A stretch of DNA of 64,000 nucleotides from Beroe forskalii (taxonomy: Eukaryota > Ctenophora > Nuda > Beroida > Beroidae), in NCBI GenBank assembly GCA_011033025.1, contig WFMF01000128.1, forward strand, positions 310,001 to 374,000. Direction: 5' to 3'. Within the stretch, counting starts at the first letter, position 1, and each line of letters starts with the position of its first letter. Under the pieces are notes generated by a model. The model searched no databases. It was given only the letters and a program-made list of their open reading frames with translations, and was not told the origin of the DNA. A program made the position numbers and the translations under genes. This document shows, one piece after another, positions 8,856 to 53,282 of the stretch.

Positions 8856-8989
8856 CTCAGTAAGTATTTTTGATGACTTCAAAGTTCAAGAATATTATTT
8901 GATATTTCCTAATTAGAATTATCAATTAGATATGATATTCAATAACACTGCTCATTTTGTAAAAGTCAAAATAACCATCATTGATTCAA

Positions 8990-9096
8990 GCCTATGACAA
9001 CAACACCACACTATCTTCTAATAGTTTCGAAAATGACTTAAAGAAAACATAAGTCAAAATTCATTTTCAGGATCTCTGTGCTGTAATCATAAGGTT
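8990..9096 (-). ncRNA. Decayed hammerhead ribozyme, left arm
   Basis: Reverse-strand counterpart of the hammerhead motif at 31,874-31,978. Stem II (GAATTTTGACTT with AAGTCATTTTC) and the GAAACT-ATT-AGA segment are present. However the core reads CTGAAAA instead of CTGAAGA, and the stem III strand reads AGA instead of AGT. Both changes hit invariant or paired positions, so this copy should be inactive while the right-arm copy keeps the consensus. Confidence 0.6.
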
Positions 9097-9118
9097 CCTC
9101 AAATTTGATTGTATAAAG

Positions 9119-9333
9119 TAGTGTTGTAACACAACACATATTAAATTAACTAACTGAGCTAAGGTTGAGGCTGCTCCTCGGAGATCCTGAAGATGATTCA
9201 TAGCTTTTCATAAAGTCAATCTTAAAGTTATGATTCGAAACTGTCAGTTGATACTGTGGAGTAGTTATTTGGCTTGAATCATAATTGTTACTTTCAATGA
9301 AAGACAGCAGTTTTATTAAATATAGTGTTGTAA
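9119..9333 (+). mobile_element. 193-bp hammerhead-bearing insert with 11-bp TSD
   Basis: The 11-mer TAGTGTTGTAA lies at 9,119-9,129 and again at 9,323-9,333. The right arm has a single TAGTGTTGTAA at the matching place and lacks the 193 bases between (9,130-9,322). This is a filled site against an empty site. The insert contains a complete hammerhead motif. A small self-cleaving RNA that was reverse transcribed and integrated as a monomer fits, but the integration machinery is not in this window. Confidence 0.75.
9171..9264 (+). ncRNA. Type I hammerhead ribozyme (monomer insert)
   Basis: Read in order: stem I strand CTGCTCC, loop TCGGAG, ATC, core CTGAAGA plus T. Then comes a stem II hairpin, GATTCATA paired with TATGATTC (one mismatch) around a long loop. 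Then GAA, stem III ACTG-T-CAGT, cleavage residue T (9,249), GAT, loop ACTGT and stem I strand GGAGTAG. The stem I strands pair with one G-U. All hammerhead core positions fit, except for one extra base after the second core segment. That variant is known from a natural viroid hammerhead. Confidence 0.75.
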
Positions 9334-9497
9334 TGTTTAATCAATTAGATATGCTATATCTATAACATATATCAACAATTAAAGAATAAATCCTTTAAAA
9401 CACATCGATCCAGAGAAATTCTATGTAAAAACAGCCAAGTCCTGATGAGATATGCTATATCAATTAGATATGATATATTATGTGTGTATGTGTTATC

Positions 9498-10907
9498 GCT
9501 TCTGTTGCTCGTCTTATCAGCTCTTGCAACTTAGCAAGTTAAATTGCAACGCATACTGTGTAGCATTTATACAGTGTACAATACATAGTACATTTGTATA
9601 ATGCCCATCCCTCTTGAAGGAATCAGTCCCTATTTTGAAGGGATTGGGATTGACAGACCCTGCCACACGGAGTTCCGGAAAGGAGATGTTCCAGCAGTTC
9701 AGAGAGTTACGGGACTTGTTTTTAAAGACATGGCTCGAGTATTGAATATGGGTGAGAGCGCTGTGCGAGACGGACGTGCTGTTTACACGAGTGTAAACAA
9801 AGACAAACTTTGCGAGTGGTTGGGACACTTTGCCTGGCTGACTGAGTACTACATGGAGCCACTAATGACTGCGGCATGTGGAGTAGCGGAAGCAGTTGAG
9901 AAGCTCAAGACGGAGAAGATCACAGATCAAAAGACCATCATAGCTCTGCAGGAGAAAGTCATCGCAAAGAAAGATAGGCATCTCACTAGAGTCCAGGAGG
10001 CAGTGAAGACTGGAATGCAGTCTTACGCAACGACAGTGGAGACCACATGTTCTGAGGCTGTGAAAACTGGGATGCAGTCTTATGCCAGTGCAGTGGAGAC
10101 GAAGTGCTCTGAAGCTTACTCTGCTAAAGTTGAAGAGACAGTGAAGGGTGGAATACAGACATATGCCAGTGCATTGGAGAGCAAATGCTCAGAAGTTTTC
10201 TCCGGAAAGAAGATAGCAGAGGCGATGAAGAGTGCTGTCCAAGCAGAAGACAGGTCCCGTAATGTAATCATCTTCGGTGTGGAAGAGCAGAGTAACGAGA
10301 TCGTGGAGGAAAAGGTTGGAGAAATCTTCTCTCACTTGGGGAGAAGCCGTGCGTGATTGAGAGTTCAAGGATGGGGCTGGTACCCAAGGCTGGACTGAAG
10401 AGACCGATTAAAGTTGTCTTGCGGGGTTCAGATCATGTGAAGCAGATTCTAAGGAAAGCAAAGAATCTGAAGGACATTACTGCCTGCAAGACTGTGTTTG
10501 TTTGCGCGGATAGGTCGGTAGAAGAACGTCAGGAAATCAAGAAGAAGGTGGAGGAGCGGAAACAGCAAAGGATTGAAGCAACTGCTGACATTACATGAGT
10601 TTTTATTATGAGTAGCATGAGTGATTTTGCTAACGTGACAGTTTAATTTATATTCATATGTCCATTTTCACAACACATTTTCATAGCCATTTATGAATAT
10701 TTTTATCAGATATAGATTGATTGATTTCATGCGAGGGGAACAGTGTCATTATGCCTTTAAGGTGTGTTCTGTGCCCTTATTTGGTGCCAGATTTTTCGGG
10801 ACGTTAATTTATTGAATGAAGTTTTATATATTAGCAAAGTGATATTGTCACCTGATAATCTGATATCAAATTAAACTTTTCAAAAAAAAAAAAAAAAAAA
10901 AAAAAAA
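9498..10907 (+). mobile_element. Polyadenylated retrocopy of an ORF1-only transcript
   Basis: The insert ends in 26 A residues (10,882-10,907), preceded by ATTAAA at 10,870-10,875. It is absent from the right arm, where the two flanks are continuous. TGTTATC occurs just before it (9,491-9,497) and just after the A tail (10,910-10,916); in the empty site the sequence is present once. It therefore looks like a target-primed reverse-transcription product with a short target duplication. It has about 100 bases of leader, a reading frame (9,601-10,598) and a 280-base 3' untranslated region, and no reverse transcriptase. Confidence 0.8.
9601..10598 (+). CDS. ORF1p-like coiled-coil and RRM-like protein, frameshifted
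   Basis: The frame opens at 9,601 (MPIPLEGISPYFEGIGIDRP). It carries three imperfect internal repeats of the type VKTGMQSYA..VETKCSEA in a coiled-coil-like stretch (about residues 135-200). It then enters a segment beginning RSRNVIIFGVEEQ (about residue 221). At 10,338-10,341 (GGGG) the frame shifts; one extra G joins HLG to EKPCVIES and continues RPIKVVLRGSDHVKQILRKA and VFVCADRSVEERQ to the stop at 10,598, about 332 residues in all. The pattern RN-IIFG, RPIKV, VKQILRKAK, DRS-EER is that of ORF1 proteins of CR1/L2-like LINEs and related families, which bind RNA. No endonuclease or RT follows, as in ORF1-only (half-LINE) elements. The shift may be an assembly error. Confidence 0.65.
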
Positions 10908-10947
10908 GATGTTATCTAAGATTTTATGAATAGAATTAATCTGAAAG

Positions 10948-12934
10948 GGCAAAATGGTACCACAGGAACACGACAAAAATTAGCCTCCATTAGCCTCCAT
11001 TAGCCTCCATGGAGGCTGAGTGGAGGCTGAGTGGAGCCTGAGTGGAGCCTAAGTGGAGGCTAATTTCAAAATTATGCCTCCACGGAGGCTAGTGGAGGCA
11101 TGAGGCTAATTTTTGAAAAATAGCCTCCACTATGGAGGCTATATTAGCCTCCACTAGCCTCCATTAGCCTCCACTAGCCTCCACTCAGCCTCCACTCAGC
11201 CTCCACTCAGCCTCCATGGAGGCTAAATTTTGGTTTAGCCTCCACTAGCCTCCACTAGCCTCCACTCAAGAATTAGCCTCCATTAGCCTCCACAAAAATT
11301 TAAAAAGTCATTTTGTGGAGGCTAAAGCCTATGGAGGCTAATAGGCTAATGGAGGCTGAGTGGAGGCTAAGTGGAGGCTGAGTGGAGCCTAAATCAATAA
11401 GCCTACAAAACACAAATTTCTTGCTGAAAATGGTGATTTATGTGTACTAATGTGAAAAACAATATAGCTTCAAACTTTCAGACAGCTCCAACTGTCCCAC
11501 TCCAGCCTCCACTAGGCTCCACTCAGCCTCCACTAGGCTCCACTCAGCCTCCACTAGGCTCCACTCAGCCTCCACTAGGCTCCACTCAGCCTCCACTAGG
11601 CTCCACTCAGCCTCCACTTAGCCTCCACTAGGCTCCACTCAGCCTCCACTCAGGCCCCACTAGCCTCCACTAGGCTCCACTCAGCCTCCACTAGGCTCCA
11701 ATGCCCACCACTAGGCTCCACTAGCCTCCACTAGGATCCAATAGGCTCCACTAGCCTCCACTAGGATCCATTCAGCCTCCACTAGGCTCCACTCAGCCTC
11801 CACTAGGCTCCACTCAGCCTCCACTAGCCTCCACTTAGCCTCCACTAGGGCTCCACTCAGCCTCCACTAGGGCTCCACTCAGGCCCCACTAGCCTCCCAC
11901 TAGGCTCCACTCAGCCTCCACTAGGCTCCACTGGCCACCACTAGGCTCCACTAGCCTCACTAGGATCCAATAGGCTCCACTAGCCTCCACTAGTCTCCAC
12001 ACAGCCTCCACAAGCCTCCTCTCAGCCTCCACTAGGCTCCATAGTCATACAGCCTCCACTAGCCTCCACTGGGCTCCACACAGCCTCCACTAGGCCCATT
12101 CCAGCCTCCACTAGGCTCCCACTCCAGCCTCACTAGGCTCCACTCAGCCTCCACTAGGCTCCACTTAGCTCACTTGCCTAGTGGAGGCTGAGCCTAGTGG
12201 AGGCTAGTGGAGCCTAGTGGAGGCTGAGTGGAGCCTACGTGGAGGCTGAGTGGAGGCTGCGTGGAGGCTAGTGGAGGCTGAATGGAGCCTAGTGGAGGCT
12301 GAGGAGCCTAGTGGAGGCTGAGTGAGCCTAGTGGAGGCTGAGTGGAGCCTAGTGGAGCCTAGTGGAGGCTGATTGATTCTAGTGGAGGCCTAGTGGTGCC
12401 TAATACTAGACTTTGGTCTATGTTACAAATGTGCTCTTTTGTAAAAACATGACATAAATTTAATTTTGTGGAGGCTAGCATATTATCTGTGTTTTTTCAT
12501 GATTTTGGCCTCCATTTGGAGGTTATAGCCTCCACTAGCACTGTCAAAATAGCTTCAATAGAATCCAAAAATGACTTTTTAAATTTCCGTGGAGGCTAAT
12601 GGAGGCTAATTCTTGAGTGGAGGCTAGTGGAGGCTAGTGGAGGCTAAACCAGGGCTTAGCCTCCATGGAGGCTGAGTGGAGGCTGAGTGGAGGCTGAGTG
12701 GAGGCTGGTGGAGGCTAATGGAGGCTAGTGGAGGCTAATATAGCCTCCATAGTGGAGGCTATTTTTCAAAAATTAGCCTCATGCCTCCACTAGCCTCCGT
12801 GGAGGCTAATTTTTGAAATTAGCCTCCACTTAGGCTCCACTCAGCCTCCACTCAGCCTCCACTCAGCCTCCATGGAGGCTAATGGAGGCTAATGGAGGCT
12901 AATTTTTGTCGTGTTCCTGTGGTACCATTTTGCC
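10948..12934 (+). mobile_element. Foldback/TU-like palindromic element, GGAGGCTA satellite
   Basis: The element begins GGCAAAATGGTACCACAGG and ends with its reverse complement. It is flanked by the 8-mer TCTGAAAG at 10,940-10,947 and 12,935-12,942. The right arm has one TCTGAAAG and no element. Terminal inverted repeats exceed 400 bases, and the interior consists almost wholly of TAGCCTCCACT units (left half and centre) and AGTGGAGGCTA units (right half). Long inverted termini made of short subrepeats with an 8-bp target duplication are the hallmark of sea-urchin TU and Drosophila Foldback elements. No transposase frame is present; the small frame near 11,440-11,631 is only the satellite translated. 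Confidence 0.85.
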
Positions 12935-13522
12935 TCTGAAAGTTGTCTGATCAGATGATAGAACAGTATTCAATATTCCCTCAATATTTAAAGATCATTT
13001 AATTGTCGAGAATAAAATTCATCAATTTTGCAATTGCATCAGCACAAAATTGGTTTAATTTATTTCATCATGTTGGGTGCATTGATTTGCATTAGATGAC
13101 ACAATTGCCCAGTAAATTCAAGTCTAACAAACAAATATCAACACAGTTTCCCATAAACTTTAAGTCTCCGAGAAGAGTCAAATATCATAAATTATATTTC
13201 GAGAGCAACAAACATTCAATATTCATAATGGATGGTCATGGTGTATGAATTTAAAAAATTCACAAAGAATAAGAAAATGTTTGTTTGTTTGAAAATAACA
13301 TACAGATACTTTGTTGTGATTCATATTTGATATATGAGAAAAGAAAGGCAAGGACAATGATTGATTGATATGTTTGATTGATGATTATTTATCGCATGAA
13401 AGTGATCCCGGCCCGGCCCAACACAACAGGATCAACTAATATAAATCGTCGGCGCTTCCTAAGCCCGAATAGATGTGTGTGTAGGCGCGCGGCGCTCCCG
13501 CCTGTTCAGTGTTCAATTCTGT

Positions 13523-13985
13523 TGATGGATTTCTCCCATCCCTGCGCGCAACACTCGGAGGTTTGGAGGGTTTGGAGGTTTTCCCCGCGGAAAACCTTGC
13601 GTGCGCGGCGGAGGGTAGGGTAACATCCTACAATCAATTCTGAGGAAGCGTGCCGCGCGCCGATCGCTATAACAATCTTATACGTGCTTACTGTTTAGCA
13701 ACGTCCCGGCGCGCGGCCTATTTTGAGATTGCCCATGCCAGGCGCGCGTTGCCTGGCCCCTTGCGCGCGCACGCGCCCCGACATAATTTCCCGAAGTCCT
13801 AGTCAAATTTATGACATATTACAAAATTTGAAGATCGCAAGTGCGCGACGCGTTAATCTTTTATTAAAGCAAGTTTTTGATGGATTTCTCCCATCCCTGC
13901 GCGCAACACTCGGAGGTTTGGAGGGTCGTGTTGCGGAAAACCTTGCGTGCGCGGCGGAGGGTAGGGTACCATCCTACAAAGCAAG
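13523..13985 (+). repeat. Direct repeat of a GC-rich ~100-bp segment
   Basis: A segment beginning TTGATGGATTTCTCCCATCC occurs near 13,523 and again near 13,875, each followed by GGAGGTTTGGAGGG and a run rich in GCGCGC. The second copy interrupts the left arm of the smaller palindrome, whose right arm (about 16,530) lacks it. Confidence 0.7.
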
Positions 13986-28829: not shown

Positions 28830-29150
28830 AGAAACTACTATGAACGTAGGGCGCGGCGCCATTTTCCTGGATGGTCGTTTTGACGTGTCAAATCGACACG
28901 TCAAAACGACCAACTGTTAGTGAGAAATAGGGCCCTGGTTTAGCGGCTTGCCGCGCCGCGCACTCCGTGCGCGAAACCAGGGCGCTGGTTAGGGCAATAA
29001 TATGTCATTGACTAGGACTTCGGGTAATTATGTCGGGGTGCGTGCGCGCGCAAGGGGCTTGCCCTAACCAGGGCCCTGGTTACGCGCACGGAGTGCGCGG
29101 CGCGGCAAGCGCTTAACCCCTGGTTAGGGGAAGCAAGGGGCCAGGCAACG
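28830..29150. repeat. Cluster of GC-rich hairpins
   Basis: GGTCGTTTTGACGTGTC pairs with its complement 4 bases later (28,870-28,912). Then GGGCCCTGGTT and CCTAACCAGG blocks, with CGCACGGAGTGCGCGGCGCG in opposite orientations, form a larger inverted repeat (28,938-28,998 against 29,055-29,125). Related CCTAACCAGG hairpins lie at 16,575-16,625. This marks the inner edge of the right arm. Confidence 0.7.
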
Positions 29151-29818
29151 CCTGGCATGTGGGCAATATCAAAATAAACCGCGTGCCATGCCAGGACGTT
29201 GCTAAACACGTATACCCCTGTTATCGCGATCGGCGCGCGGCGCGCTTCCTCAGAATTGATTGCTAAACACGTATATCCCTGTTATCGTCGCGCGGCGCGC
29301 TTCCCGTAGGGAAGCGCCGCGCGCGTACACACACCTATGCGGGCTTAGGAACAGAATTGAACAGGCAGGAGCGCCGCGCGCCTACACACACATCTATTCG
29401 GGCTTAGGAAGCTCCGACGATTTATAACAGTTGATCCTGTTGTGTTGGGCCGGGCCAGTATCACTTTCATGATAAATAATCATCAATCAAACATTCAAGC
29501 CTATCAATCAATCATTGTCCTTGCCTTTCTTTTTTTATATATCAAATATGAATCACAACAAAGTATCTGTATGTTATTTTCAAACAAACAAACATTTTCT
29601 TATTCTTTGTGAATTTTAAAAATTCACACACCATGACCATCCATTATGAATGTTTGTTGCTCTCTCGAAATATAATTTATGATATTTGACTCTTCTCGGA
29701 GACTTAAAGTTTATGGGAAACTGTGTTGATATTTGTTTGTTAGACTTGAATTTACTGGGCAATTGTGTCATCTAATGCAGATCAATGCACCCAACATGAT
29801 GTAATAAATTAAACCAAT

Positions 29819-29871
29819 TACATTACATTACATTACATTACATTACATTAAACATTACATTACATTACATT
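29819..29871 (+). repeat. TTACA microsatellite
   Basis: About ten copies of ATTAC, present only in the right arm. Confidence 0.9.
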
Positions 29872-30443
29872 TTGTGCTGATGCCATTGCAAAATTGATGA
29901 ATTTTATTCTCGACAATTAAATGATCTTTAAATATTGACGGAATATTGAATACTGTTCTATCATCTGATCAGACAACTTTCAGATTAATTCTATTCATAA
30001 AATCTTAGATAACATCTGCTCAACATAATATATCATATCTAATTGATATAGAATATCTCATTAGGACTTGGCTGTTCTTACATAGAATTTCTCTGGAATG
30101 ATGTGTTTTAAAGGATTTATTCTTTAATTGTTGATATTTGTGTTTCACTGCATCAATGATCAATCACTTCAAACATGTTAGAACCGTGCAAGCACGGGAT
30201 GATTCACCCACATCACTGGTTGTTGACATAGACCATAGAACACCATCTCACACCCATGGTGAAGCAGTTTTAAATAACACAAATAAATCTAGGTGCTATG
30301 ATTTATATGTCAATTACCCCCGCCTCCGCACAAAAGTGAGCACTTCACTTCTGAGATTATCCTTCTTAAAGAAATGCAGACTTTTGAAAAGACCACCTCA
30401 GGTTATCATTGGTTTCACATCATAATCTCAGAATGTTGTGTTA

Positions 30444-30514
30444 CACTATGTGGAGATCCTGAAGAAGAAATATTTAATTTCGAAACTGACAGTCGATTAG
30501 TGGTATACATAGTG
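30444..30514 (+). ncRNA. Type I hammerhead ribozyme, unit 1
   Basis: Stem I strand CACTATGT, loop GGAG, ATC, core CTGAAGA plus A. Stem II GAAAT-ATTTA-ATTTC, then GAA, stem III ACT-GAC-AGT, cleavage residue C (30,494). Then GAT, loop TAGTGGTAT, and stem I strand ACATAGTG, an exact complement. The short stem III is typical of animal type I hammerheads, which usually cut as dimers. The predicted cut is between 30,494 and 30,495. Confidence 0.85.
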
Positions 30515-30847
30515 TGTGGGTTTGATATCATTTTTGAGATTTGTGTTTCACTGCATCAATGATCAATCACTTCAAACATGTTAGAACCGTGCAAGCACGG
30601 GATGATTCACCCACATCACTGGTTGTTGACATAGACCATAGAACACCATCTCACACCCATGGTGAAGCAGTTTTAAATAACACAAATAAATCTAGGTGCT
30701 ATGATTTATATGTCAATTACCCCCGCCTCCGCACAAAAGTGAGCACTTCACTTCTGAGATTATCCTTCTTAAAGAAATGCAGACTTTTGAAAAGACCACC
30801 TCAGGTTATCATTGGTTTTCACATCATAATCTCAGAATGTTGTGTTA

Positions 30848-30918
30848 CACTATGTGGAGATCCTGAAGAAGAAATATTTAATTTCGAAACTGACAGTCGA
30901 TTAGTGGTATACATAGTG
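30848..30918 (+). ncRNA. Type I hammerhead ribozyme, unit 2
   Basis: Identical in core and stems to unit 1. The predicted cut after 30,898 is 404 nt from the first. Confidence 0.85.
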
Positions 30919-31252
30919 TGTGGGTTTGATATCATTTTTGAGATTTGTGTTTCACTGCATCAATGATCAATCACTTCAAACATGTTAGAACCGTGCAAGC
31001 ACGGGATGATTCACCCACATCACTGGTTGTTGACATAGACCATAGAACACCATCTCACACCCATGGTGAAGCAGTTTTTAAATAACACAAATAAATCTAG
31101 GTGCTATGATTTATATGTCAATTACCCCCGCCTCCGCACAAAAGTGAGCACTTCACTTCTGAGATTATCCTTCTTAAAGAAATGCAGACTTTTGAAAAGA
31201 CCACCTCAGGTTATCATTGGTTTTCACATCATAATCTCAGAATGTTGTGTTA

Positions 31253-31328
31253 CACTATGTGGAGATCCTGAAGAAGAAATATTTAATTTCGAAACTGTCA
31301 GTCGATTAGTGGTATACATAATATAGTG
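31253..31328 (+). ncRNA. Hammerhead ribozyme variant, unit 3
   Basis: Core intact and stem III loop changed (ACTG-T-CAGT). A 3-base insertion in the distal stem I strand (ACATAATATAGTG) leaves six pairs and a bulge. The predicted cut is after 31,303. The loop change leaves pairing intact; the insertion may weaken the tertiary contact. Confidence 0.75.
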
Positions 31329-31658
31329 TGGGTTGATATCATTTTTGAGATTTGTGTTTCACTGCATCAATGATCAATCACTTCAAACATGTTAGAACCG
31401 TGCAAGCACGGGATGATTCACCCACATCACTGGTTGTTGACATAGACCATAGAACACCATCTCACACCCATGGTGAAGCAGTTTTTAAATAACACAAATA
31501 AATCTAGGTGCTATGATTTATATGTCAATTACCCCGCCTCCGCACAAAAGTGAGCACTTCACTTCTGAGATTATCCTTCTTAAAGAAATGCAGACTTTTG
31601 AAAAGACCACCTCAGGTTATCATTGGTTTTCACATCATAATCTCAGAATGTTGTGTTA

Positions 31659-31729
31659 CACTATGTGGAGATCCTGAAGAAGAAATATTTAATTTCGAAA
31701 CTGACAGTCGATTAGTGGTATACATAGTG
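31659..31729 (+). ncRNA. Type I hammerhead ribozyme, unit 4
   Basis: Same as unit 1. The predicted cut after 31,709 lies 406 nt from the unit 3 cut. Confidence 0.85.
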
Positions 31730-31873
31730 TGTGGGTTTGATATCATTTTTGAGATTTGTGTTTCACTGCATCAATGATCAATCACTTCAAACATTGTTGA
31801 TATATGTTATAGATATAGCATATCTAATTGATTAAACTTTACAACACTACTTTATACAATCAAATTTGAGGAT

Positions 31874-31978
31874 GCTTATGATTACAGCATGGAGATCCTG
31901 AAGATGAATTTTGACTTATGTTTTCTTTAAGTCATTTTCGAAACTATTAGTAGATAGTGTGGTTTTGTTGTCATAGGC
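31874..31978 (+). ncRNA. Older hammerhead ribozyme, right-arm copy
   Basis: Core CTGAAGA plus T, long stem II GAATTTTGACTT with AAGTCATTTTC, GAA, stem III ACT-ATT-AGT, cleavage residue A (31,952), GAT. Distal stem I pairs GTTGT and CATAGGC with ACAGC and GCTTATG around a 3-base bulge. Both arms hold it, so it inserted before the duplication; the left copy is mutated in the core. Confidence 0.7.
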
Positions 31979-32223
31979 TTGAATCAATGATGGTTATTTT
32001 GACTTTTCAAAATGAGCAGTCTTATTGACTATCATATCTAATTATAATTATGCTTTTATTTGTATATAAGGTTTAAGTTAATGTTTTATTAAATTATTTA
32101 CATATAGTGACACATTGATTATATAAGTTAGAAGTAATAAATAAATAAATAGATATCTAATTGATAATTCTAATTAGGAAATATCAAATAATATTCTTGA
32201 AGTCATCAAAAATACTTTCTCAG

Positions 32224-35200
32224 GTTTATGAATTATCCAGCATTGGAGCTATGATTGATCACCTTGATGCTGACCTTATTGACATTACATCATTTAATAG
32301 AGTAAGTATCATAAGTGAAATTTGAAGTAAGATGTAATTTGTATCTTTAAATATGTAGGACCTAATGCATAGCACTCAAAGCTCTAAGCAAGAATAAAAC
32401 AATAAAATGTTAATAAAACAATAAAATAAGAGTAATCTAGCATTACTTTCATGTCCTAAAATTGGGTTATGCTTCCAAATTATGCTCTGCAGTCAGCAGC
32501 AAACAATGAGTCAATGATCCCTGAAAGTGTAAAAAACTGTCAGCAGACGTTTTCTTCATTTCTATCTATTTAATCCATCTAGGTATACTGATCTTACAAT
32601 TCATAATTAGTACCCATGCATCTTAGTTAGTACCCATGCATCTTCATACTGGAGAAGTTTTTGTAACTTTGTAACAACTGAGCTGGTCATGAGATCAGGG
32701 ATGGTTGCATAGGCATCAACAATAATAGTGATCCTGGGTAGCTGTAGTGTGAAGCATATCATACTTCATGATGTCTATGACAATTTAAATTAACATTTCA
32801 TCAATTGAAATGTACTTCAGAAAATGTTGTTAATTTTCTCAGCACTGCAATAATGCAGCAAATAACATTTTCATTGCTTGCTGCATATAAACATGTTATA
32901 ACTCAGCATCTGGTAGCATGTTATGTGCTGTGGTATGTATCTGCACTTCTGCCTCCAATGTGTTTAATGCAGTTCAGTTTTGTTGCTTCCCGTTGTTCTC
33001 CAGATATCTTTACTGTATGAGTTTCGGTTTACTGTATACATATTTCGTTGGTACCTATGTTTCTATTATAAGACTGACGAAAATATGAAGTAGCAATATA
33101 CTTTTATGTGAGGTGCACATTCAACTAATTCGACAAAAGTAAAATTGCTGTAAGGGTCGAAATTTTTCAGGTCATTTTATGCTTTTGGGTTTCATACACT
33201 TACTAAATTTCTAGCCTTCTGCCTTTGCTCAATAATCATCATTTATTATTATGTATACCATTATAAATCTAACTAGATATAAAATAACGAAAATATACTT
33301 GATTCTCGACATACTCTCACTTATTTAATGCTATACATTCTTTGGCATGTACCGAATGTAATAAGTTATGTTATTGTAAGGATTCCCTGATACGAATTTA
33401 AAAGGTTTGTGATGTAGCTTCTGGTCATGTGACCTCCTCACATGATGTGTGTTGGTAGAAGTTTTAGAGGGGTTCCATGAAGTTAAATCATTGTGTTGAC
33501 AAATGATAATATGATATGTTAGATTAAATACAGGTAGTGTTATACTGTTATGTGTAGTGTATTGGATTGAGTACTTTCTCAATCGACAGTCGCCACCATA
33601 TTTTATTCAAAGCAGTGGAAAATGAGCATGTATAGTTTAGTGCTTGGTTGGAAATATAGAATTTAGCGGAAAAATGTACATTAGTTAATGAATATTTCAT
33701 GATAAGTAATCATGCATATTGTACATCATGAGATAGCAACCCAGTTGATAACCATTCTGGACACAATATTGTAGTGTATCCAGTATCGGTCTATGACTGA
33801 TCACACCATGATAGTTCCCTTCTGATTCAGGAGCTAATACGGTAACACAATACATAATATTTTGAATCATAACAAAATGTTATAAATAGGATTTGTGTTA
33901 CTATGTAAATATTTATAGGTAAATGAATGCATGTCGATAATATGATTATGTGCACTTTGTTCTTGTTACACAGGCTATTATCAGTTGTTTGAAGTAGTGT
34001 TGTATTTTGTAACAAATTCGTTTGTAAGTCATCCTGTGAATGTAATCTGTAAATTTCAAAACGTTTCTTTGACGTGTTTGTGATTTCAAATCTAAAGGCG
34101 TATATCTTCAATTAAAGTGTTCTTGTCCCTTTAAAACAAATTCTGAGTCTTTTTCACTACCACACATTCCCCATCATAGTGCCTGGCTGGTCTTGGGATG
34201 GAGCCGGTCGTGAGTCAGAATGAGTTCGCTGGGAAGATTAACGACGTGACGAACTACCACCTCAACTGGATGAACGAGAGGAATGCTATGGAGGAAAGGT
34301 GCGTTTATCGGGAATTATTGAATGTTTTTATAAATTGGTCTGTTTGACAGGGGCTAATCAGTAGGTGAGTTGAACACAAACTCGTATGCTGATTGATCTA
34401 TGTCGAGGCGATTTTTCCTACGTCCTAACTCTTCTACCTACGCCGGCGATTTGAATCAGGGGGCTGGCAAGCCCCCCGCGGCGGTTTGCGAGCCCGAGGG
34501 CCCGCAGGGCCCGAGGGCGAGCTTTGGACGGCGAACCTTACAGTGCGAGGGCCGAAGGCCCGAGCGCGAGCCCGAGGACCCGAAGGGTCCGAGGGCGAGC
34601 ATTGCACATCGATTCTGACGGTATAAATTTCATTAATTTCCACATATTTCACGAAGCAATTTGGGGAATTTCCCCTGGTTGGATTTCCACCAAAATCGAT
34701 AGGTCGCTTCTTTGAGGGTCAAAGGCGCAACTGTCAAAATTTCAGATCAATTGGATAAAAAATGACCAAGTTATAACAACTTATTCACACCGAAATCGTA
34801 CACGCGATGCGTACGCATCGCTGCGCTTGCCAGCCCCCAACTATATGTTTTCATGGATTCGCCGAATTTCAAAAATTTTTATGGTACGTTCCCGACGATC
34901 AAATAAATTGAAAATTGAGTTTCCGCGCCTTCGCTGTGCGCGCGCTCGGGGTTTAAAATTTGAGATCAATTAGTTCAGAAATGGCTGAGTTATAACTACT
35001 TGAAATCGCCAAAATTGAGGGTGTTCTTGTTAAAAAGGGTTACGACGCTGCAGATACATATCGAGAGACTTTTTTAGTGAAAGAAGTATACCCTATTTAG
35101 AAGGCGATATCTCGTGAACCATAAAAGATACAGAGCTCATCGACCCAGCGTTGGAAAGTAGAAAGATAGAACTTACGAAAAATGACCTTAAAAAGTATCT

Positions 35201-38200
35201 TACGTCATGCCAATGACGTCATAATGACGTCACAAAACTAAGAATTTCGAATGTCGATTTTCCCAAAAATAGGCGTTTTTCAACGCAATTTTTCGGTATG
35301 AAGCTTTCGAGATAGGAAAAAATGCTCCTCCTAGCGTTGAAAGGAAATTTAATGTACTTTTTAAAAATGTGGTTGAAAAGTTCTAAGCTCCCCAGCATCA
35401 TTGAGATATATGCGATTGTTTGAAACACTTTGACACGAAAAAAATCCCAAAAAATGGCAAAACTTGTGAAGCTAGTGGAGAGAGAACGGGACAACCCCAG
35501 AACTTCATCTTTGGATATGTTGTCGGTCATAGTCCCAATTGTGTTAATGAATGGGTCTCAGATAGCTTATCTAATTTATGACGTAATTGTGACGTCATCA
35601 GTAATGCTAGGTAACGCGAATTTTTACGCGCGGTTTGACGCCAAATTTCAATATCTGGGCACAGAAAAAGGGTGATATTTTTTCCCAAAACCAAAAAGGA
35701 TTTGGTTGTGATGTCCGCGGCGGTTTTAAGGCGTTCTTTACTGTAAAACCCATGATATGAGAAAGAACGCGACGGTTGGAACTGCCGCAACGGCACTTTC
35801 TTGATGCATTAAAGTTACGTGAATGTTGTATATTGTGACGTTGCAGCAGTTTTAACCGTCGCGTTCTTTCTCATATCATGGGTTTTACAGTAAAGAACGC
35901 CTTAAAACCGCCGCGGACATCACAACCAAATCCTTTTTGGTTTTGGGAAAATATCTACATCTTGCAGTTATCTATTCACCCCATTCTAGAATCTGTAGTA
36001 ATGTTAGTACAACCTGATTTTTGAAGGACGTCATGTTAGTATTGTTTCAGTGTCGTCACACAATCATAATTATGACTATACTATCGCAACATTCATACAT
36101 GTTTCTACTCCTCTAAAATGGGGACGTAATGCAATAACCAGCCACCACCGAGCGCTATTCAAGTTCTTAAGTATTTTTAGGCACATTTCTTCAAGGAGTA
36201 ACCTTGCATATCAATGGGAATTGGGGATGATATGCAAGCATTTTGATTGAATTATGAAATAGGTCAGAGCATAGCGTGGAGAGGAACAGGACACCCGCTC
36301 TCTCTACATAGTGCCAATTCGATTATCTACCTCCCCACTTCACTGTTGGACTAACATGAAAATGACTAACACGCTTTTGCAACGCAACATACAATAATAC
36401 AGTGGGTTGCCTAGATCTGGGCAACCTGACATACAAATATGAACGGGGTTGCCTGTTTCTGAAACTTGAGCTCCCTAGCAGAGGAGGAGCAATATGCAAT
36501 AGCATTTGTAAACAGTGATGAACAGTGTCCACTAGCGACTGGCGACTGGTCTATGTATACAATCGGAACTGTTGATTAATTTCACAATTTTATTTCTGTG
36601 GATGTTTGTTGTCAACCGTCAAGCAGGTCACATGTTAGTAATTTTGTCCTTTTATTATCCTAGATGTTAGTACAATATGTTGCATAAGTTGCCTGGGTTT
36701 TTGAATGGGGTCTATTCATTTATCTCATTCATTTTCATTGGTGTTAAATTTGTGATGAACGAGAACTCTGACCTTAGCTTAGCTCATGAAACCAAATATG
36801 ATCAAATCACCGTACATACATGAGCTGGCTACAGAGAAGACCTCACAAGTTTAACTTCCATTATAATCAAGTGTATTGAGTTACACGCAATAACAACAAC
36901 AATACACATTGTACATGTTTAGCCTGTGTTAATATATGCGAACCAACTTTTATAACTTGTGTTTTCTTGCAGAGCCTGCATCACATCTTTGAATACAACG
37001 TAACATTGAAAATCTTTTATTAAGTAAGGTGCAGCTTAGACCAAGGTAGCAGGTGTAACGTATCTAGCAAATCCAACGTTGTTGGTGTATCATAGTTGGT
37101 GTGAAGTAATTGGTGCAACGTTGAAGGTGTAACTTATTAGGTGTAACGACTGTTACGCTGTATGTGTGTTAGGTACATCTATATTATAACGGGGTTTTCT
37201 GAATATTTGCTAGACAAAAAACAACCACTTACCAGTAATAATCACGCCCAAAAATAGGCGGTGTGACGTCAACATTTCCTTCTTCAGAACGTTGATAATG
37301 ACATCGCTATTAACTGTCAATTAATCACGGACATGTATGGTCAATGTCATTAGCGTAACGATCGAAGTTTTTACAACTGTGACCGTTATTAATATGGTTA
37401 GATGGTGGCTAATGAGCGATGAAAAATCTTCATAAACAGCTGTAATCATAGATTTACTGACCCTACCAAATTAAGTTCATTGTTTTCAAACTTTTGATTC
37501 ATGTTATTAATAGCCTTATGTACACCAATATAAAATTATTGCTCCCGGCTGCAGTACCTTAGCACAACTTGGCAAGGTAACAGGGCTATATATCAGATCC
37601 CTGTGTATTATCTACTACTTCTAATAACCTCTGTACTCTGGGGCATGTTGCTATGGTGATATGTGAACTGGTATATACAAGACCATTACCGGTACACAGC
37701 ACCATATTGAGATGTACCCATCCTATAATGTGTATGGAATTGGGGAAGGTTGGGTAAATACTTTAAAAACAACCGTTATTGAATATGGAGGATTGAATTA
37801 AAAAGTCGTTATGGGGCGCAGAGCCAGAAGCCAATTAATAATGTCCTTCCATCATCGCATGTAACACCACTATAACTGTAAGTTTTGCAACTGCAGCTGC
37901 CATCGGATGATGGCTTCTAATATCCGATGGCCTTCTCATAGGATTCAGAAATCGTGATTACGTTGGCCAATCAGTGCGCGAGTTTACGGTCAACTTGCGT
38001 TCTATGGCCGATTTCAAATGACCTTTGTATCGAAAGTCGACATAATTTTCTCTTGAATCGCCTCTCCATATTATTTGTCTACGTAAAACTTAAGTCACGG
38101 TTAGTTCACTGAACACGCCCAAAACATGAGTAACACTGCCCGTAGTAGTGTAGTGCTTAACAAGCTGCATGAAGCACTGTACTCTGTACATTGTACAAGT

Positions 38201-41028
38201 CTCCAGTGAATTGCATCAAAACTGCTAAAGTCATCATTCATTGTTACAACATCGGTGGCTGGAAGGATCTGTTGAGTCAGTTGCAGATCCTTGAGAATTC
38301 TATTAAAGTTGTGACATACAAAATGTAGAAGATAGTTTCAATAAACGATCCTTCCAGGGGCATCGATAGTTTGCAACTTCGTGCAGAAATTTAGTATTAA
38401 ATTAATAAATACTTAAAGCGACTTAAATACTGAGAATTGCAGAGTACTAGAGTATTGCATCGTGCATGTCAAAGTGCAGAAAGAATATTAGCATCTGCAC
38501 ATATATACTGTAATAGTGAAAATATTAATGTTCACATTTTGAGGTGTCATTCTTCAGCAAAGTTATGGTTATTAAATCACGATTCATCATTTCTGCTTCT
38601 TTTTGATGTTATTATGGTTTCATCTACACGTCCTCAATTTATCTGTGCTGAACTACTAATTTTATCTTTACAGTATAGAGAGAAAATTAGTAGATCAGCT
38701 CAGATAAATCGAGCGTGTGTAGTATTTAACGATGGATCTGAAAATCACTCACATCGGCTATCATTCATCCCTCTCTACCCCCCCCCCCCCCAGACTCGAT
38801 TAACCTCTTCCTGCTTCACTGAGAAAACCCAAAAAGTTTCATAATAGGGTAAAACGGGGTGGAGTGGGACAGGAGGTAAAGAGGGACAAATTGGGGTGAA
38901 ATGGAACACCTGGGGGGAAAGTGGGACACTTAACGAAATTTCAAAAAACCTACATCTATGCAAAGCTATGGTGAAGACTACACTTTGGGTAAAGAGGAAC
39001 ACTGTCAAAATTATGCATAAGACCGATATGGGGTAAAGTGGGACAAATTTTCGAAAATTTTCCAAAGCAACACCCCAACAGTATTTCATGCAATAAAAGC
39101 CACTGGGTAAAGTGGGACAGTCATATTTTGTATATTTTACCCATTGTGGGGTAAAGTGGTACAGCAATAACAATTGATTTTATGATGATCTAGACATTTA
39201 TTTGTTATAATTTAGATGGAATGCTATTGCCAACAAGACTTTACAGGTGAGTGGGGAAAGTGGAACAGGAATTTAATCTTGATTATTGGATAATGGGGTA
39301 ATGTGGGACAATTGATAAAAAGTATGGAACTAATCGAAAATCGCCCTGTTTTTGTGACTTATGTATGTGAGAATATCAATAATGCCTATTAAAACTTTTA
39401 ATTCAGCATCACGAATTAAAATTATTGATTTTTATTGAATTTTTGACAATTTTTGCGCAACTGTCCACTTTCCCAAATTTATTATATACCATATCATTTA
39501 GTGCTATTTTCAAGAAAATAAAGTATACTACAACCAAAGTGAAAAATCTTGATGAAAAACAACCTGCATAGCATAACTGTTTCCTTAGGAATACATGATT
39601 TCATTTGATCTGACTTGACTGTCCCACTTTCCCCATTAACATGATTTTCAATGAAAATAAAATTTCATGCCTGAGAAACTTATAAGGGGATGTTTTAGTA
39701 AACAAATTATGAGTTGCAAATGCTTTTATTGCTTATATTGTGATAATTATCCTTGTTAACTATCAGTGTCCTCTTTTCCCCACAACGTGTTAATTATAGG
39801 TAACTACATTTTCTCATTAAATTTCGTCATTTTGGGCTTCACTCAGATGGCGACTGAACCGTTGGAATGGAGAAAATCGATAAATGGTTCCCATACAACA
39901 AATTTACAAAGTTTTAGGTGAGCGCGGGTAAAGTGGGACATTTTAAAAAGGCTGTGAAATGACCAAAAACCAAAATTCTTGCCAAAGAGGTACTTATTTT
40001 CCATGTTTGGCCATATATGAACCTCTTTATGAAATTTGAAAGTTTAAATCTAAAAAGAATAATTTTTGGGGTAAAGTGGACCAATTCATTCAATTCTCCA
40101 ATTTGCCCAATTAGACTCAATCTTTTCTCTGTTCCAAAGTGGTTTATTCGACTTATTCTAAAGAACTGTACATGTCCAATGAAGAAAAAACTTCTCAAAT
40201 GGTTATCTCAGGGCTACAGAGACTGTCCCTCTTTACCTCCACATGAGGGGTGAAGTGGGACATGCTGTGGGAAAGATGGACAGCTTTTTTCTATATGAAA
40301 ACCATTGGTTGAGATTTTTTCGGCCAATTCTATGGAAAGAGGAAGGGTTCATTGCTAAAATCATCAACCAAAAATTAATTTTTCGTTAAAAGTGTGACTG
40401 TGGCACCTGAATATGTCTCAAATTGTCCCACTTCACCCCACTTTACCCTATAGATTTTATACTTTTACTAGCAGGCCCGTTGGGCCTGCTAATACGCAGC
40501 TCACTCGGCGCTGCTACGCAGCACCTCGTTCGCAAAATTCAAATCAACTAAATAATTTTTACCGCACCAAAAAATTCCAAACAGATCAAAAAGTTACGGA
40601 GCAACGAAATGAAAACAGCATTAAACAACACTCAACAGATAAAGTTCCAGTATCCGATTTGTTGCTTCTTTGATGTTTCAAGACTCGTCAACTTTTCCGT
40701 TGAATCATGCTTTTTACCGCATCAAAAACTCCGATCCGTTCAAAAGTTATTAGAGATCGCAACGTACTAACGTAATCAAAACACCATTAACAGAAATGAG
40801 CGCGCGCGCAATTCTCCGTGCACGTGTCACCATGGCAACCCGCACAAATCGTAATGCGCGCGCGTTCCGAAGATGTTTCCGCCGTTACGTACAAACAAAA
40901 AACAGAGGTTGCGAAATTATATAAGAGATAGCACTTATTTGTAATTTCTCACAAATTCTCATTTCTTCAGATGTTCCAAGATGCAGGCAGACTCAAACAA
41001 CTACCTCAACATCATGGATAGACTGCAG
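32224..41028 (+). CDS. Unrecognised gene, right copy, three exons
   Basis: Plus-strand counterpart of the left-arm gene: exons 32,224-32,301, 34,180-34,298 and 40,971-41,028. Acceptors are CTCAG, CATAG and TTCAG; donors are GTAAGT, GTGCGT and GTTAGC. The encoded 85 residues are identical to the left copy. The intron between the last two exons is 6.7 kb here and 2.5 kb on the left because several mobile elements have inserted. The 5' part of the gene should lie toward the palindrome centre and the 3' part beyond the outer edge; I found neither. The absence of amino-acid changes against a background of many intron differences argues that both copies were under purifying selection after duplication, or that gene conversion keeps the exons alike. 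Confidence 0.65.
34459..35950. mobile_element. Right-arm-specific insert with internal long hairpin
   Basis: The insert is absent from the left arm, where the two flanks adjoin near 6,385. It starts with the hairpin GGGGGCTGG-CAA-GCCCCC and GC-rich GAGCCCGAGGGCCC tracts. At 35,681-35,790 and 35,848-35,950 it has a ~100-bp inverted repeat (AAGGCGTTCTTTACTGTAAA and complement) around a ~60-bp loop. Frames here have no recognisable domain. Confidence 0.65.
35979..36710. mobile_element. TIR element CCCCATTC with 8-bp TSD
   Basis: Begins CCCCATTC and ends GAATGGGG, flanked by TCTATTCA at 35,971-35,978 and 36,711-36,718. The left arm keeps the uninterrupted TCTATTCATTTAC. The motif ATGTTAGTA recurs near both ends. 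The 8-bp duplication suits hAT- or P-type transposition. No transposase is seen. Confidence 0.8.
38845..40450. mobile_element. TA-flanked element of GGGTAAAGTGGGACA repeats
   Basis: Ends TAGGGTAAAACGGGGTGGAG and (reverse strand) TAGGGTAAAGTGGGGTGAAG. Both the first 0.5 kb and the last 0.5 kb are loose arrays of GGGGTAAAGTGGGACA, facing each other. The left arm has CATATAGAC at this point, so the insertion duplicated TA. No transposase frame is visible. This is another satellite-filled inverted-terminal element. Confidence 0.75.
40458..40915. mobile_element. Right-arm-specific insert starting with a GCAGGCCC hairpin
   Basis: The hairpin GCAGGCCC-GTT-GGGCCTGC opens a ~450-bp segment absent from the left arm, with TACGCAGC repeats and a GCGCGCGC tract near 40,800-40,865. 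It lies directly beside the TA-flanked element. The class is unknown. Confidence 0.5.
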
Positions 41029-41604
41029 GTTAGCCACAGTGACACTTTACGGAGGCTTGTTTTATCAGAGAGGATTAACAGGGGTGTGTAAGATTCAGGA
41101 GATTAGATTGAAAAGCGGAGAAGCAGAGGAGATTAGGCGGGCATCTGACTATGATAATCAATTTGTTGTCAAATAAGTTGCATTCATTTCAATTTTGATT
41201 TAAGTTTCCACTGATTGACATTTGAAAGTTCCGAAAACTCCGAATTCTGGCTCCTATCATTTACTCATTCAGTAGCAAAGCCATCACATAGAATAGCAAA
41301 GCCATGATGACAGACGGTGTACCAGATATCATTAGTACAAGTAACGGCAGCTGTGTCAGGATGATTAAAGTTTGTGTGTACTGTGTACAAGTGCAGTGTG
41401 TGTTTGTCACTTTGTCTGTCACTTTGTTGGTGTGTCAATCTGTCTGTCAATTTGTTGTGTGTAACGCGCAAGTTGTGTGTTACACAGTAGAAAAGTAGAT
41501 ACGCACGTTGTGTGTTACTGGTTACACACATGTTAGGAAGGTGGGAGGTCAATGGTTATAGTGTGATTATCCCAGTAGGGGGTATTAAACGGTGACAGTG
41601 TTAG

Positions 41605-41753
41605 ATCGCCACCAAAACCGTTGGACGGTTGGTCAAGTAACCCCCCGCTGGTTTGGATGTGATCAGCCCATTTTGTCTCTTTTCAGGTTCCGTTGTCACA
41701 TCCAAACCCGCGGGGGGTTACTTGACCAACCGTCCAACGGTTTTGGTGGCGAT
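41605..41753. mobile_element. 149-bp MITE at the outer edge of the right arm
   Basis: ATCGCCACCAAAACCGTTGG through GGTTTGGATGTGA is an almost perfect inverted repeat with only ~30 bases of loop. It sits within 3 bases of where arm homology ends. Confidence 0.8.
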
Positions 41754-45377: not shown

Positions 45378-46970
45378 ATGGAGAAGCAGATGAAACCCAT
45401 CTTCGTCATGTTTGTGACGCTCTTCAGTTGCTGCGGAAGTGTCATCCTGCTCGAGAAGCTGGTCAAAGATTTCCCTGACTGCACGGTCTTCCTCACATTC
45501 GCAAGTAAATATTATATCTCTTCGCCATCAATCATATCTTCGTAGATGGAAATATATTCGTACAACATCATTTATTCATTTAATGATTATCCCTCGTTAA
45601 TGTCTTCAAAGGTAGTTTGCTATAAAATATTTATTCATAGCTGACATTTTCGAAGGTTCCTGTTTTCAATCTGTAAATTCTGCTTTAAGTCATAAAACTG
45701 GCGCCAAACCTGCATTAGACCTGCACTAGACTGGCACAAGACCTGCATTATACCGGCGTTAGACCTGCATTAGACTGGCGCCCGGACAAAGTGGCAAACG
45801 GATCTATGCCCCATAAAACTGTAGCATAGCCATAGATTCGAAAAACATTGGAGTAACCTGTAGACAGGTAATCAGTGCTAAGTCTTGCATAGAATTTCCA
45901 GAACAGTTTCAAAATTATCACTGTATTTATGAGACAGACTATACATTATACTGAGCTCCCAACGTGGTATTTTCACTGCGCCGTGACAGTTTTCTAGATT
46001 GAATTTGAAAACAGGCTTTTAAGAAAATGTCAGCTGTATTTCCCGACTACAACTATTTATCATATCCCTCTCTATTCCCTGCATTCCAGGTTTTCTGTGC
46101 ATCGTGTGTCAAGGGATCATGTTCAACCCTCGGTTCCTACTGGCTCCCAACATCCCCGTCGTAAACTACGTGAAGATCACCATCCTCTTCTTCGTCTCCA
46201 ACGTCTGCAACAACCTCGCCCTCAGCTACGACGTGGACATGCCGACCCTCGTGGTCATCAGGTCAGGCTCCCTCGTGGCGAACATGCTCGTGTCCCTGGT
46301 GACCTTCAGACGCCACTACCCACCCTCCAAGTACATCAGCGTTGCCATGGTGACGGCAGGCGTGCTTCTCTCCACGGCAGCTACCGCCCAACTCAAGACG
46401 GAGGGCGGGGGTGACGGCGCGGACTTGGGTCGGTGGGCCTTCGGAATGCTGCTCCTCCTGGTGGGGTTGTTCGGGTCCGCCACGACAGGGGTGTTCCAGG
46501 AGAAGCTGTTCACGAACTTCGGAAAGCACCCCAAGGAAGCGCTCTTCTACAGCCACTTCCTTGGCATATTCGGCTTCCTCATCAGCTACCAGAACATCGC
46601 CAAGTCCGTGGTGGACTTCTCGCTGTCGCCGGCCCTGTTCGGCGTGGTGCCGAGCGCGTGGGTGACGTGCGTGGCGTATGTGGGTATTCTGAACGTGTGC
46701 ATGCAGAGCATTTACTATCTCCTCTCTGAGTGGAGCTCCCTGGCCGTGACCCTGGTTACAACCATCAGGAAGTTCCTGAGTCTCATCCTCTCTATCTACC
46801 TGTTCGGGAACCCCTTCACCCTGCAGCACTGGCTGGCTGCTGGCCTGGTGTTCACTGGCTCTGCTATCTACACGGAACTTATTCAGCTGCGTTCTATCAA
46901 GCAGTTCTTTGTCAGACTCGGTCTGGTGGAGCTGCAGGGGGAACAGGAGAAGGTTATCACTGACTGCTGA
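45378..46970 (+). CDS. SLC35B4: SLC35B4-type nucleotide-sugar transporter
   Basis: Two exons: 45,378-45,504 (donor GTAAAT) and 46,090-46,970 (acceptor ATTCCAG). Joined in phase 1 they encode 335 residues; human SLC35B4 has 331. SLC35B4 carries UDP-xylose and UDP-GlcNAc across Golgi/ER membranes. The splice creates TFASFLCIVCQGIMF, equivalent to the human TFAQFLFIAVEGFLF. Other family signatures are RSGSLVANM, GKHPKEALFYSH near the middle and VTTIRKFLSLILSIYLFGNP plus FTLQHW near the end. The protein is hydrophobic throughout, consistent with about ten membrane spans. Starts at 45,354 or 45,390 (MKPIFVMF) are possible, the latter matching the human N terminus best. Vertebrate genes have many more introns. 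Exon 2 is much richer in G+C than its flanks. Confidence 0.93.
45700..45785 (+). repeat. AGACCTGCATT minisatellite in the SLC35B4 intron
   Basis: Seven or so imperfect ~12-bp units alternating CCTGCATTAGA and CTGGCGTTAGA. Confidence 0.75.
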
Positions 46971-51504: not shown

Positions 51505-51915
51505 ATGAGAGAGAAGGCTAACGAATCCTCGGTAGAAGCTAACGCTAATGCAATCGAGGTGGCTCGTTCCGCATGCCTTGACCTCCGCCACCGCGATCTG
51601 AACATGGTACGGACGTTCAGCAAGCCCCCCGAGGCTATCAAGAAGGTGTACATCGCTCTACACATCCTGTGTTCGGAGAACTACAGCCCAGATTGGCAGG
51701 ACGCCAAGAAGATGGTGTTCTGCAGTCCGGAGAACGAGGGGAGCATCCACTCGCTGATCAGGAAGTTTGATGGGAGTAGAGTGGGCAGGGAGCGAGTGGA
51801 GGCAGTCAGACAACTCACGCAGGACTTGCAGGAGAGGGATGTATATGTTAAGGAGGAGTATTCTGTGGTGTACTATCGCTTTGTGAGGGCTGTCTGCGAT
51901 AACACGCACTGCTGA
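51505..51915 (+). CDS. Dynein-stalk/microtubule-binding-domain-like small protein
   Basis: A 136-residue frame, GC-rich like the neighbouring genes. The N-terminal 30 residues (EANANAIEVARSACLDL) look like the end of a coiled coil. DLNMVRTFSKPPEAIKKVYI then ALHILCSENYSPDWQDAKKM and LIRKFDGSRV follow the order of the dynein heavy-chain stalk tip: (D)L-E-R-PP--V--V--A--IL, -W--AK-M, L--(F)D. The match is by pattern only, so it is moderate. An in-frame TGA 9 bases before the ATG means the frame does not continue upstream without a splice. The last ten codons (VRAVCDNTHC) and the stop are the first unit of the 29-bp minisatellite that follows. It may be a lone exon, a truncated gene or a real small protein. 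Confidence 0.4.
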   Translation: MREKANESSVEANANAIEVARSACLDLRHRDLNMVRTFSKPPEAIKKVYIALHILCSENYSPDWQDAKKMVFCSPENEGSIHSLIRKFDGSRVGRERVEAVRQLTQDLQERDVYVKEEYSVVYYRFVRAVCDNTHC

Positions 51916-52656
51916 GGACTGTATGCGATAACACGCACTGCTGAGGACTGTATGCACTGCTGGATAACGCACACTGCTGAGGAATGTCTGAATGCTGCGA
52001 TAACACGCACTGCTGAGGGCTGTATGTGATAACACGCACTGCTGAGGACTGTATGCGATAACACGCACGGCTGAGGACTGTATGTGATAACACGCACTGC
52101 TGAGGACTGTCTGCGATAACACGCACTGCTGAGGACTGTCTGCGATAACACGCACTGCTGAGGACTGTCTGCGATAAGTGCACTGCTGAGGACTGCCTGC
52201 GATAACACGCACTGCTGAAGACTGTCTGCGATAACACGCACTGCTGAGGACTGTCTGCGATAACACGCACTGCTGAGGACTGTCTGCGATAACACGCACT
52301 GCTGAGGGCTGTCTGCGATAACACGCACTGCTGAGGACTGTCTGCGATAACACGCACTGCTGAGGACTGTCTGCGATAACACGCAATGCTGAGGGCTGTC
52401 TGCGATAACACGCACTGCTGAGAGCTGTCTGCGATAACACGCACTGCTGAGGGCTGTCTGCGATAACACGCACTGCTGAGGGCTGTCTGCGATAACACGC
52501 ACTGCTGAGGACTGTATGCGATAACACGCACTGCTGAGGACTGTCTGCGATAACACGCACTGCTGAGGACTGTATGCGATAACACGCACTGCTGAGGACT
52601 GTCTGCGATAACACGCACTGCTGAGGACTGTATGCGATAACACGCACTGCTGAGGA
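51888..52656 (+). repeat. 29-bp minisatellite, ~26 units
   Basis: The unit ACTGTCTGCGATAACACGCA CTGCTGAGG is repeated with few variants (TATGCG for TCTGCG, GGGCTG for GGACTG). A disturbed stretch at 51,945-52,000 has shortened units. The unit length is not a multiple of three and contains no stop on the minus strand, so all three minus frames stay open for over 250 codons, giving periodic serine- and cysteine-containing peptides that are not genes. Confidence 0.95.
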
Positions 52657-53282
52657 CCATCGGAATGTTTTTTAGATTTGAGGAAAGGAGGAATGTCAAG
52701 TTATATTTTTTCTTCTTAACTTATATGCAAGAAGTCGAAATCTTCAAATTTATCAACTGAACAACATTTTTAGTTTCCTAAAATTTTATTTTATAGTTTA
52801 TGTAGTTTATGTAGTTTAATTGTAAATAATACATTGTAAATAACTAAATATGAGTATGAATTAGGTACTTTTTTACTGTTTATTTGAATTGTCGGACTAA
52901 TCAATTTATTAAACCACTGAAAGCGACGATATTGAATTTTTCACATCATTGATGTCCTTCATTGTAATTCACAATTATATTCCATTTTATTTTGTTTATA
53001 TTTCATTAATTTCAAACGTAAGTACGATTTTTTTGAAAAGTTATTCATGCCCTTGTTTTCAAGCAATTTTGAGGGGAATTCATTGGATTGAGGTCTTGCA
53101 AATTAAATTTCTCATTTTGATAAACTTCCCGATCAAAATATTAAATAAATTCAGTTACAACTTGTGAGAAAAATTCTGTTTTTTATAATTCATAAAATCA
53201 TAATCATCATGATTGGTTATTTACCATATAACTGTATCTAGCTAAGTCCAGAACGTGATATAAAGAACAACGAAGAGAAGTC

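Follow-up and report, generated by a model that had tools for sequence, protein, structure and literature searches.

A retrozyme-like hammerhead array of Penelope-like descent in the genome of Beroe forskalii

What mobilises the retrozymes of animals is the question that the locus described here addresses. According to the parts of the 2020 discovery paper available to us (PMC7229834), published animal retrozymes carry type I hammerheads in tandem units of 150-450 bp, have a low GC content and target site duplications (TSDs) of more than 4 bp, are multi-copy and were shown as circRNAs; Penelope-like elements (PLEs) were named there as a strong candidate for the helper, and no more. The available portion of a review of the same year describes the retrozyme repeats as lacking any motif that would reveal the helper (PMC7761336). 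The window analysed here, 64,000 nt of one Beroe forskalii contig, holds a tandem array of hammerheads which a preliminary description had read as a retrozyme. Where did its units come from, and how did they reach this site? The array and its insertion site are as follows.

30138..31792, plus strand: inserted array, some 4.1 units of an internally deleted PLE arranged head to tail
30127..30137, plus strand: left copy of the 11-bp TSD ATTGTTGATAT, which is single in the inverted other arm
31793..31803, plus strand: right copy of the 11-bp TSD ATTGTTGATAT
9369..9379, minus strand: empty target site of the array, a single ATTGTTGATAT in the inverted arm, sequence uninterrupted

Units were numbered from the base directly 3' of the hammerhead cut (+1). 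In these coordinates the array runs from +47, where 2 nt overlap with the target, to +83, or up to +85 when bases common to the target are counted. The first cut is preceded by 357 nt and the last is followed by 85 nt. Cut-to-cut lengths were 404, 405 and 406 nt and the GC content of the unit was 37.9%. The four hammerheads in tandem units of about 404 bp with a partial fifth, as first described, were recovered. No feature of the unit that would mark the array start at +47 was seen. The direct repeats said to bracket the array are present at both ends, with a length of 11 bp where 10 bp had been given, and the empty site said to lie in the other arm was found. The TSD and the uninterrupted single site in the inverted arm show that only one of the two arms received the array, by insertion. 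The surroundings form a large imperfect inverted repeat (3446-13764 vs 29133-41605), with blocks of 78-99% identity and different insertions in each arm.

Four hammerheads were located in the array.

30444..30514, plus strand: hammerhead 1, cut between C30494 and G30495
30848..30918, plus strand: hammerhead 2, cut between C30898 and G30899
31253..31328, plus strand: hammerhead 3, cut between C31303 and G31304, with loop III changed and the 3' strand of distal stem I altered
31659..31729, plus strand: hammerhead 4, cut between C31709 and G31710

A descriptor scan of both strands of the window, with 0 or 1 extra base allowed, gave five matches; four placed C3 of the array hammerheads at 30459, 30863, 31268 and 31674, and the fifth, at 31898, lies beyond the array. 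In the control, for which 40 sequences of 128 kb were simulated with a first-order Markov model, the mean was 0.25 matches. The parts of the motif named in the preliminary description were all confirmed, namely CTGAAGA followed by one extra base, the hairpin GAAAT/ATTTC and GAAACT-NNN-AGT-C/GAT. The distal stem I pair CACTATGT/ACATAGTG is also present, with the exception of unit 3, in which the strand is altered to ACATAATATAGTG.

The extra base had been taken as an A that distinguishes the family of the array. A whole-genome pattern with a base after CTGAAGA gave 428 matches (reversed control, 0) and the same pattern without the extra base gave 2 (control, 0); both patterns fix the core CTGAAGA and the GA that starts stem II, and the counts cover such hammerheads alone. 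In a loose scan of loci allowing 0-2 extra bases, 18 of 24 rows had the stem III ACTNNNAGT, and in all 18 a single base separates CTGAAGA from stem II; the six rows lacking this stem III were discarded as chance matches. Hundreds of hammerheads of the genome have the extra base, which was seen as A, C or T, and it therefore does not set the array apart. In contigs of viruses, one pattern scan matched at least 120 stretches and a second one 10.

To the covariance search that had been suggested as a check, the window gave no Rfam match at the gathering score, and the region 29500-32800 gave no hammerhead with E up to 10. Nearly all pattern matches (428 vs 2) have a base after A9, and the standard models miss the hammerheads of the window. 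Base pairing was examined in six families, represented by 17 hammerheads (16 distinct rows) picked from those found. In proximal stem I, stem II and stem III, 97.3% of cells were paired, compared with 14-44% in controls slid by 1-3 columns. Two-sided cells numbered 25 against 7.2 +/- 2.3 in shuffles, and the covariation score was 0.367 against 0.142; none of 500 shuffles was as high in either measure. Kinship among the hammerheads inflates these counts. Two of the five measures showed no excess over the shuffles: pairs with two-sided change (5 vs 3.7, 66 of 500 shuffles) and further pair types (10 vs 10.4, 405 of 500). Stems I and II covary, while stem III is invariant, so that covariation is silent on stem III. 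With the conserved core, three stems and compensatory changes, the array hammerheads are predicted to be of type I. In the minimum-energy folds of hammerheads 1 and 3 the 3-bp stem III was not formed; the folding z values were −0.69 and −1.45, respectively, and −0.37 and −3.54 for two single elements, C and D, described below. The Rfam misses and the folds of hammerheads 1 and 3, which do not favour the active form, count against activity.

The origin of the unit was apparent from a PLE elsewhere in the genome (G000:C253, L161). The first complete unit, U1 (30495-30898), is identical to this element in its positions 1-313 and 314-404, which cover the hammerhead, the leader and the beginning of the ORF. 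In the C253 element these two parts are separated by 3.1 kb, through which runs a 1050-aa open frame that starts inside the unit; in U1, 3103 bp are gone at CAGGTT joined to ATCATTGG, with one base common at the junction. The coding remnant in U1 is as follows.

30559..30807, plus strand: ATG (+65) and start of the PLE reading frame as far as the junction CAGGTT joined to ATCATTGG, with no difference from L161

Retained in the unit are the hammerhead-bearing end of the pLTR, the 5' leader and 313 nt directly past the cut, with the RT start site and the beginning of the ORF; gone are 3103 bp of coding sequence and most of the pLTR. About 83 codons of the ORF are retained; an RT and endonuclease of its own, as an autonomous element would have, are lacking. 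The units had been read as non-coding repeats of the retrozyme kind, a view that does not hold for U1, a piece of a PLE including its ORF start. Splicing was considered as the cause of the deletion and ruled out, as GTT is kept after CAG and no AG precedes the right side.

The parent element has the order pLTR-ORF-pLTR-tail with a hammerhead at both pLTRs. The motifs YGLLKIHK, ATGGSLS, RFVDD and IIYCAEC..CNKQYTGK of its ORF are ones that we take to be PLE-like. When 45 of 518 candidates were scored, its protein had at least 55 matches in the genome, among which stop-free relatives had 65% identity (C209, C187) or 36-39% identity (C664, C563). The NCBIfam group II RT model TIGR04416 matched all three relatives scanned with E of 6.5e-5 to 1.6e-4, far below the model cut-off, and Pfam GIY-YIG matched C-terminally in two of five relatives with E of 0.025-0.047, also below the cut-off. 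No RT or GIY-YIG was found by Pfam in 10 ORFs of the window, fragments in L169, L180 and L168 gave no Pfam match, and nothing relevant was returned from the PDB by sequence, whether the PLE protein or its alignment was the query. The RT and GIY-YIG matches are weak but consistent, and from the cumulative evidence the parent is a PLE.

The junction motif starts at 30399, 30802, 31207 and 31613, and its copy in the first unit has a one-base deletion. A search of the genome for the junction with up to 3 mismatches found three places, all in the array (control, 0); the search takes substitutions and no indels, so that derivatives with indels there could be missed. A whole-genome search with one unit gave at least 88 matches (40 scored of 640 candidates in the 216-Mb genome), and the array was the sole locus of the deletion derivative found. 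The unit size, tandem order, type I hammerhead, low GC content and TSD would all suit an animal retrozyme family of the usual kind with no relation to PLEs, which was the first reading of the locus. The identity of the unit to a PLE contradicts that reading, the unit being a piece of a PLE with the ORF start, and we regard it as extremely improbable. Nor was a dispersed retrozyme family seen, since the junction, searched with substitutions and without indels, occurs at one locus only. What stands of the retrozyme reading is layout, unit size, GC content and TSD. The array is retrozyme-like in layout and a PLE derivative in descent.

One full unit has no change relative to the C253 copy. The variants among units are private to single units, except for one T insertion in a homopolymer which U2 and U3 have in common. 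Such homopolymer differences resemble sequencing noise and only one locus was found, as might be expected if PLE reads had been collapsed or mis-joined in the assembly. An artefact of this kind would not account for the clean 11-bp TSD with its matching empty site or for a junction repeated with private differences, and it is very unlikely.

The ends of related copies were compared with that of the array. Of at least 106 tail sites of this kind in the genome, 39 distinct tails of family A were compared with the ORF copy. The sample included 12 short stretches (L197-L208) picked for not matching the 3' part of the hammerhead and one, C505 (L196), picked because it seemingly had no such match; L199/L200 and L201/L202 are apparent copies of one another including their flanks. 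The tails, that of the array included, ended at +81 to +89 past the cut in 33 of the 39; three others ended at +91/+92, one at +100, and two earlier, at +41 and +69. The usual tail end was TTCAAACA at +84; the flank beyond it was unrelated, apart from a few chance matches in many cases. The end of the array, 83-85 nt past the hammerhead cut, is at this same place. For Poseidon of Anolis carolinensis (PAc), the available part of the published study gives an RT start 111-118 nt into the ORF and a hammerhead cut 26 nt in (PMC11167929), from which we calculated a distance of 85-92 nt between cut and RT start. A PLE enzyme would therefore begin where the array ends, and the 3' end of the array, like that of a PLE, lies at an internal RT start in the ORF start. 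The minimum RNA of PAc reaches 172 nt into the ORF in the same partial account, that is, 146 nt past the cut, and the array unit keeps 313 nt. A hairpin just past the RT start was no more stable than shuffled sequences.

Clear TSDs were seen in 2 of 37 rows (L164, 12 bp; L187, 13 bp), with the true 5' end mostly outside the reference; L196 had a TSD of 14 bp, as read from the alignment. More than two tail sites within 1 kb were found in the array alone among 100 of the 106 sites, and one pair was found at C303. Three tail-only copies (the second copy of L167, at C303 in reverse complement, and L197 and L204) seem to have the base following the cut as their first base and to stop close to where tails usually do, and could mark cleaved RNA. 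Insertions starting exactly at the cut were considered as a sign of cleavage in vivo and rejected, as L196, L206 and L208 begin earlier and keep bases before the cut. With these three copies, and with a choice of sites biased to the cut interval, nothing was drawn on cleavage.

The sequence comparisons establish PLE descent, a PLE-type 3' end, insertion with a TSD, and youth. As to the course of events, the array is probably a young insertion of a non-autonomous, internally deleted PLE that arrived via multimeric or circular RNA copied by a PLE RT. Protein from an intact relative would have bound RNA of the deleted element, multimeric or processed by the hammerheads and re-circularised. Within this RNA, reverse transcription would have begun some 84 nt downstream of a cut and run through slightly over four units, and joining of the product to an AT-rich target would have left the 11-bp duplication. 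We infer the cleavage, the circle or multimer as template, the rolling reverse transcription and the mobilisation by PLE protein. This reading is favoured by the identity of U1 to L161, the restriction of the junction to the array, the tails at +81 to +89, the TSDs and the pairing. Given a deleted source, the RNA route covers the unit series, the ends and the TSD in one event; the source was not found in the genome.

A real rival is amplification in place. A near full-length PLE, running from +47 round to +84, could have inserted, lost 3.1 kb and had its remnant amplified to four copies by unequal exchange or slippage. About 38 nt (+47 to +84) are present at both ends of the array and would provide a direct repeat for slippage, and the TSD and 3' end are compatible with one PLE insertion. 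The common T insertion lies in the neighbouring units U2 and U3, fits duplication in place and counts against the RNA route. The junction was seen nowhere else and no source element was seen, and amplification in place needs no unseen source. It does, however, call for an insertion, a deletion and several duplications while one full unit stayed unchanged relative to the PLE copy, and the variants other than the common T are private to single units. The RNA route has further points against it, namely the Rfam misses, the unfavourable folds, the two null measures of pairing, the exceptional position of a multi-unit series among family-A tail sites, and the scarcity of clear TSDs, the true 5' end being mostly outside the reference. 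We also counted against it that insertion of PAc in vitro was unaffected by hammerhead mutations, according to the available part of that study (PMC11167929), in which the PAc hammerhead cut only when protein was present. In our judgement the RNA route is the probable course, and amplification in place after PLE insertion is possible but less likely.

Two further hammerhead elements were found in the repeat arms.

31833..32032, plus strand: family C hammerhead element, 200 bp, cut between A31952 and G31953, 3' end 80 nt past the cut, present in both arms
9130..9322, plus strand: family D hammerhead element, 193 bp, cut between T9249 and G9250, 3' end 73 nt past the cut, present in the other arm only

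Family C is flanked by CATATCTAATTGAT at 31819-31832, with a right copy from 32033 that is broken by a later insert, and occurs in ten other places with 90-96% identity over at least 109 of 201 bases. Family D has an 11-bp TSD, TAGTGTTGTAA (9119-9129 and 9323-9333), and 39 other copies of 93-99% identity among 40 scored. Both are single units at this locus, and some relatives are found in close pairs elsewhere (e.g. C680, C902). Two kinds of sequence similar to the 5' parts of C and D are also located upstream of family-A hammerheads, a pattern suggestive of template switching. These two kinds, beginning AACAACACTACT and ACACAACACATATTAAATTAACTAACTGAG, are joined to different hammerhead-tail parts (31833-32032, 9130-9322; L175, L177, L178, L167, L176), and in such mosaic non-autonomous elements the family-A breakpoints lie about 68-71 nt before the cut.

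Other features of the window were recorded in passing. A SINE-like insert of 109 bp (32044-32152), found in the window arm only, ends in AATAAATAAATAAATAG and has a 10-bp duplication, ATATCTAATT. Host genes are represented by an ORF with a UAA transporter domain (46023-46967; E 5.3e-69) and an exon-like ORF with a RabGAP-TBC domain (63317-63916; E 6.9e-27). A 29-bp repeat in 26 tandem copies (51884-52657) is open in three minus-strand frames.

The comparison with known systems, as far as the available parts of the cited papers go, places the array between two groups. With Poseidon (PMC11167929) and the Penelope of Adineta vaga (PMC3846280) the family has in common the hammerhead at the pLTR-ORF junction, an ORF with an RT core and a C-terminal GIY-YIG-like motif in the parent, a pLTR plus tail into the ORF start, partial tandems, and the spacing of the 3' end at the RT start. 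Short TSDs are a further common trait, with 8-10 bp published for those PLEs and 11-14 bp in the Beroe family. The cut lies 64 nt before the ATG in the family of the array and 26 nt past the ATG in PAc. Unlike known PLEs, the array unit has no RT or endonuclease and is a deletion derivative of 404 nt in about four tandem copies; unlike their hammerheads, those described here have stem III and an extra base after A9. Natural hammerheads are known with insertions in or near the core, and the sites named in the available part of one account (PMC3088659) are after A6, in GAAA and near C3, the A9 site not being among them. No base after A9 and no PLE-derived array in print was found in a literature search by title and start of abstract, outside which Cervera & de la Pena 2014, Lunse 2017 and Arkhipova 2017 fell.

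With the animal non-LTR retrozymes (PMC7229834, as far as available) the array has in common short tandem repeats with type I hammerheads, low GC content and a TSD of more than 4 bp; it differs from them in that one locus was found, in its PLE parentage, and in being known from DNA alone. The locus is sequence evidence, from one genome, for the proposal of PLEs as helpers of retrozymes. The array shares sequence, hammerhead and 3' end with an intact-looking PLE of the same genome, which makes the link directly testable. Tentatively, it may be a retrozyme at birth, a PLE remnant without coding capacity copied from circular or multimeric RNA by the enzyme of its parent because hammerhead, internal RT start and the region past the RT start were retained; animal retrozymes in general might then be PLE remnants served by PLE protein in trans, whose PLE parents have faded. 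Between the two groups, the array is best filed as a non-autonomous PLE which works, if at all, in the manner of a retrozyme.
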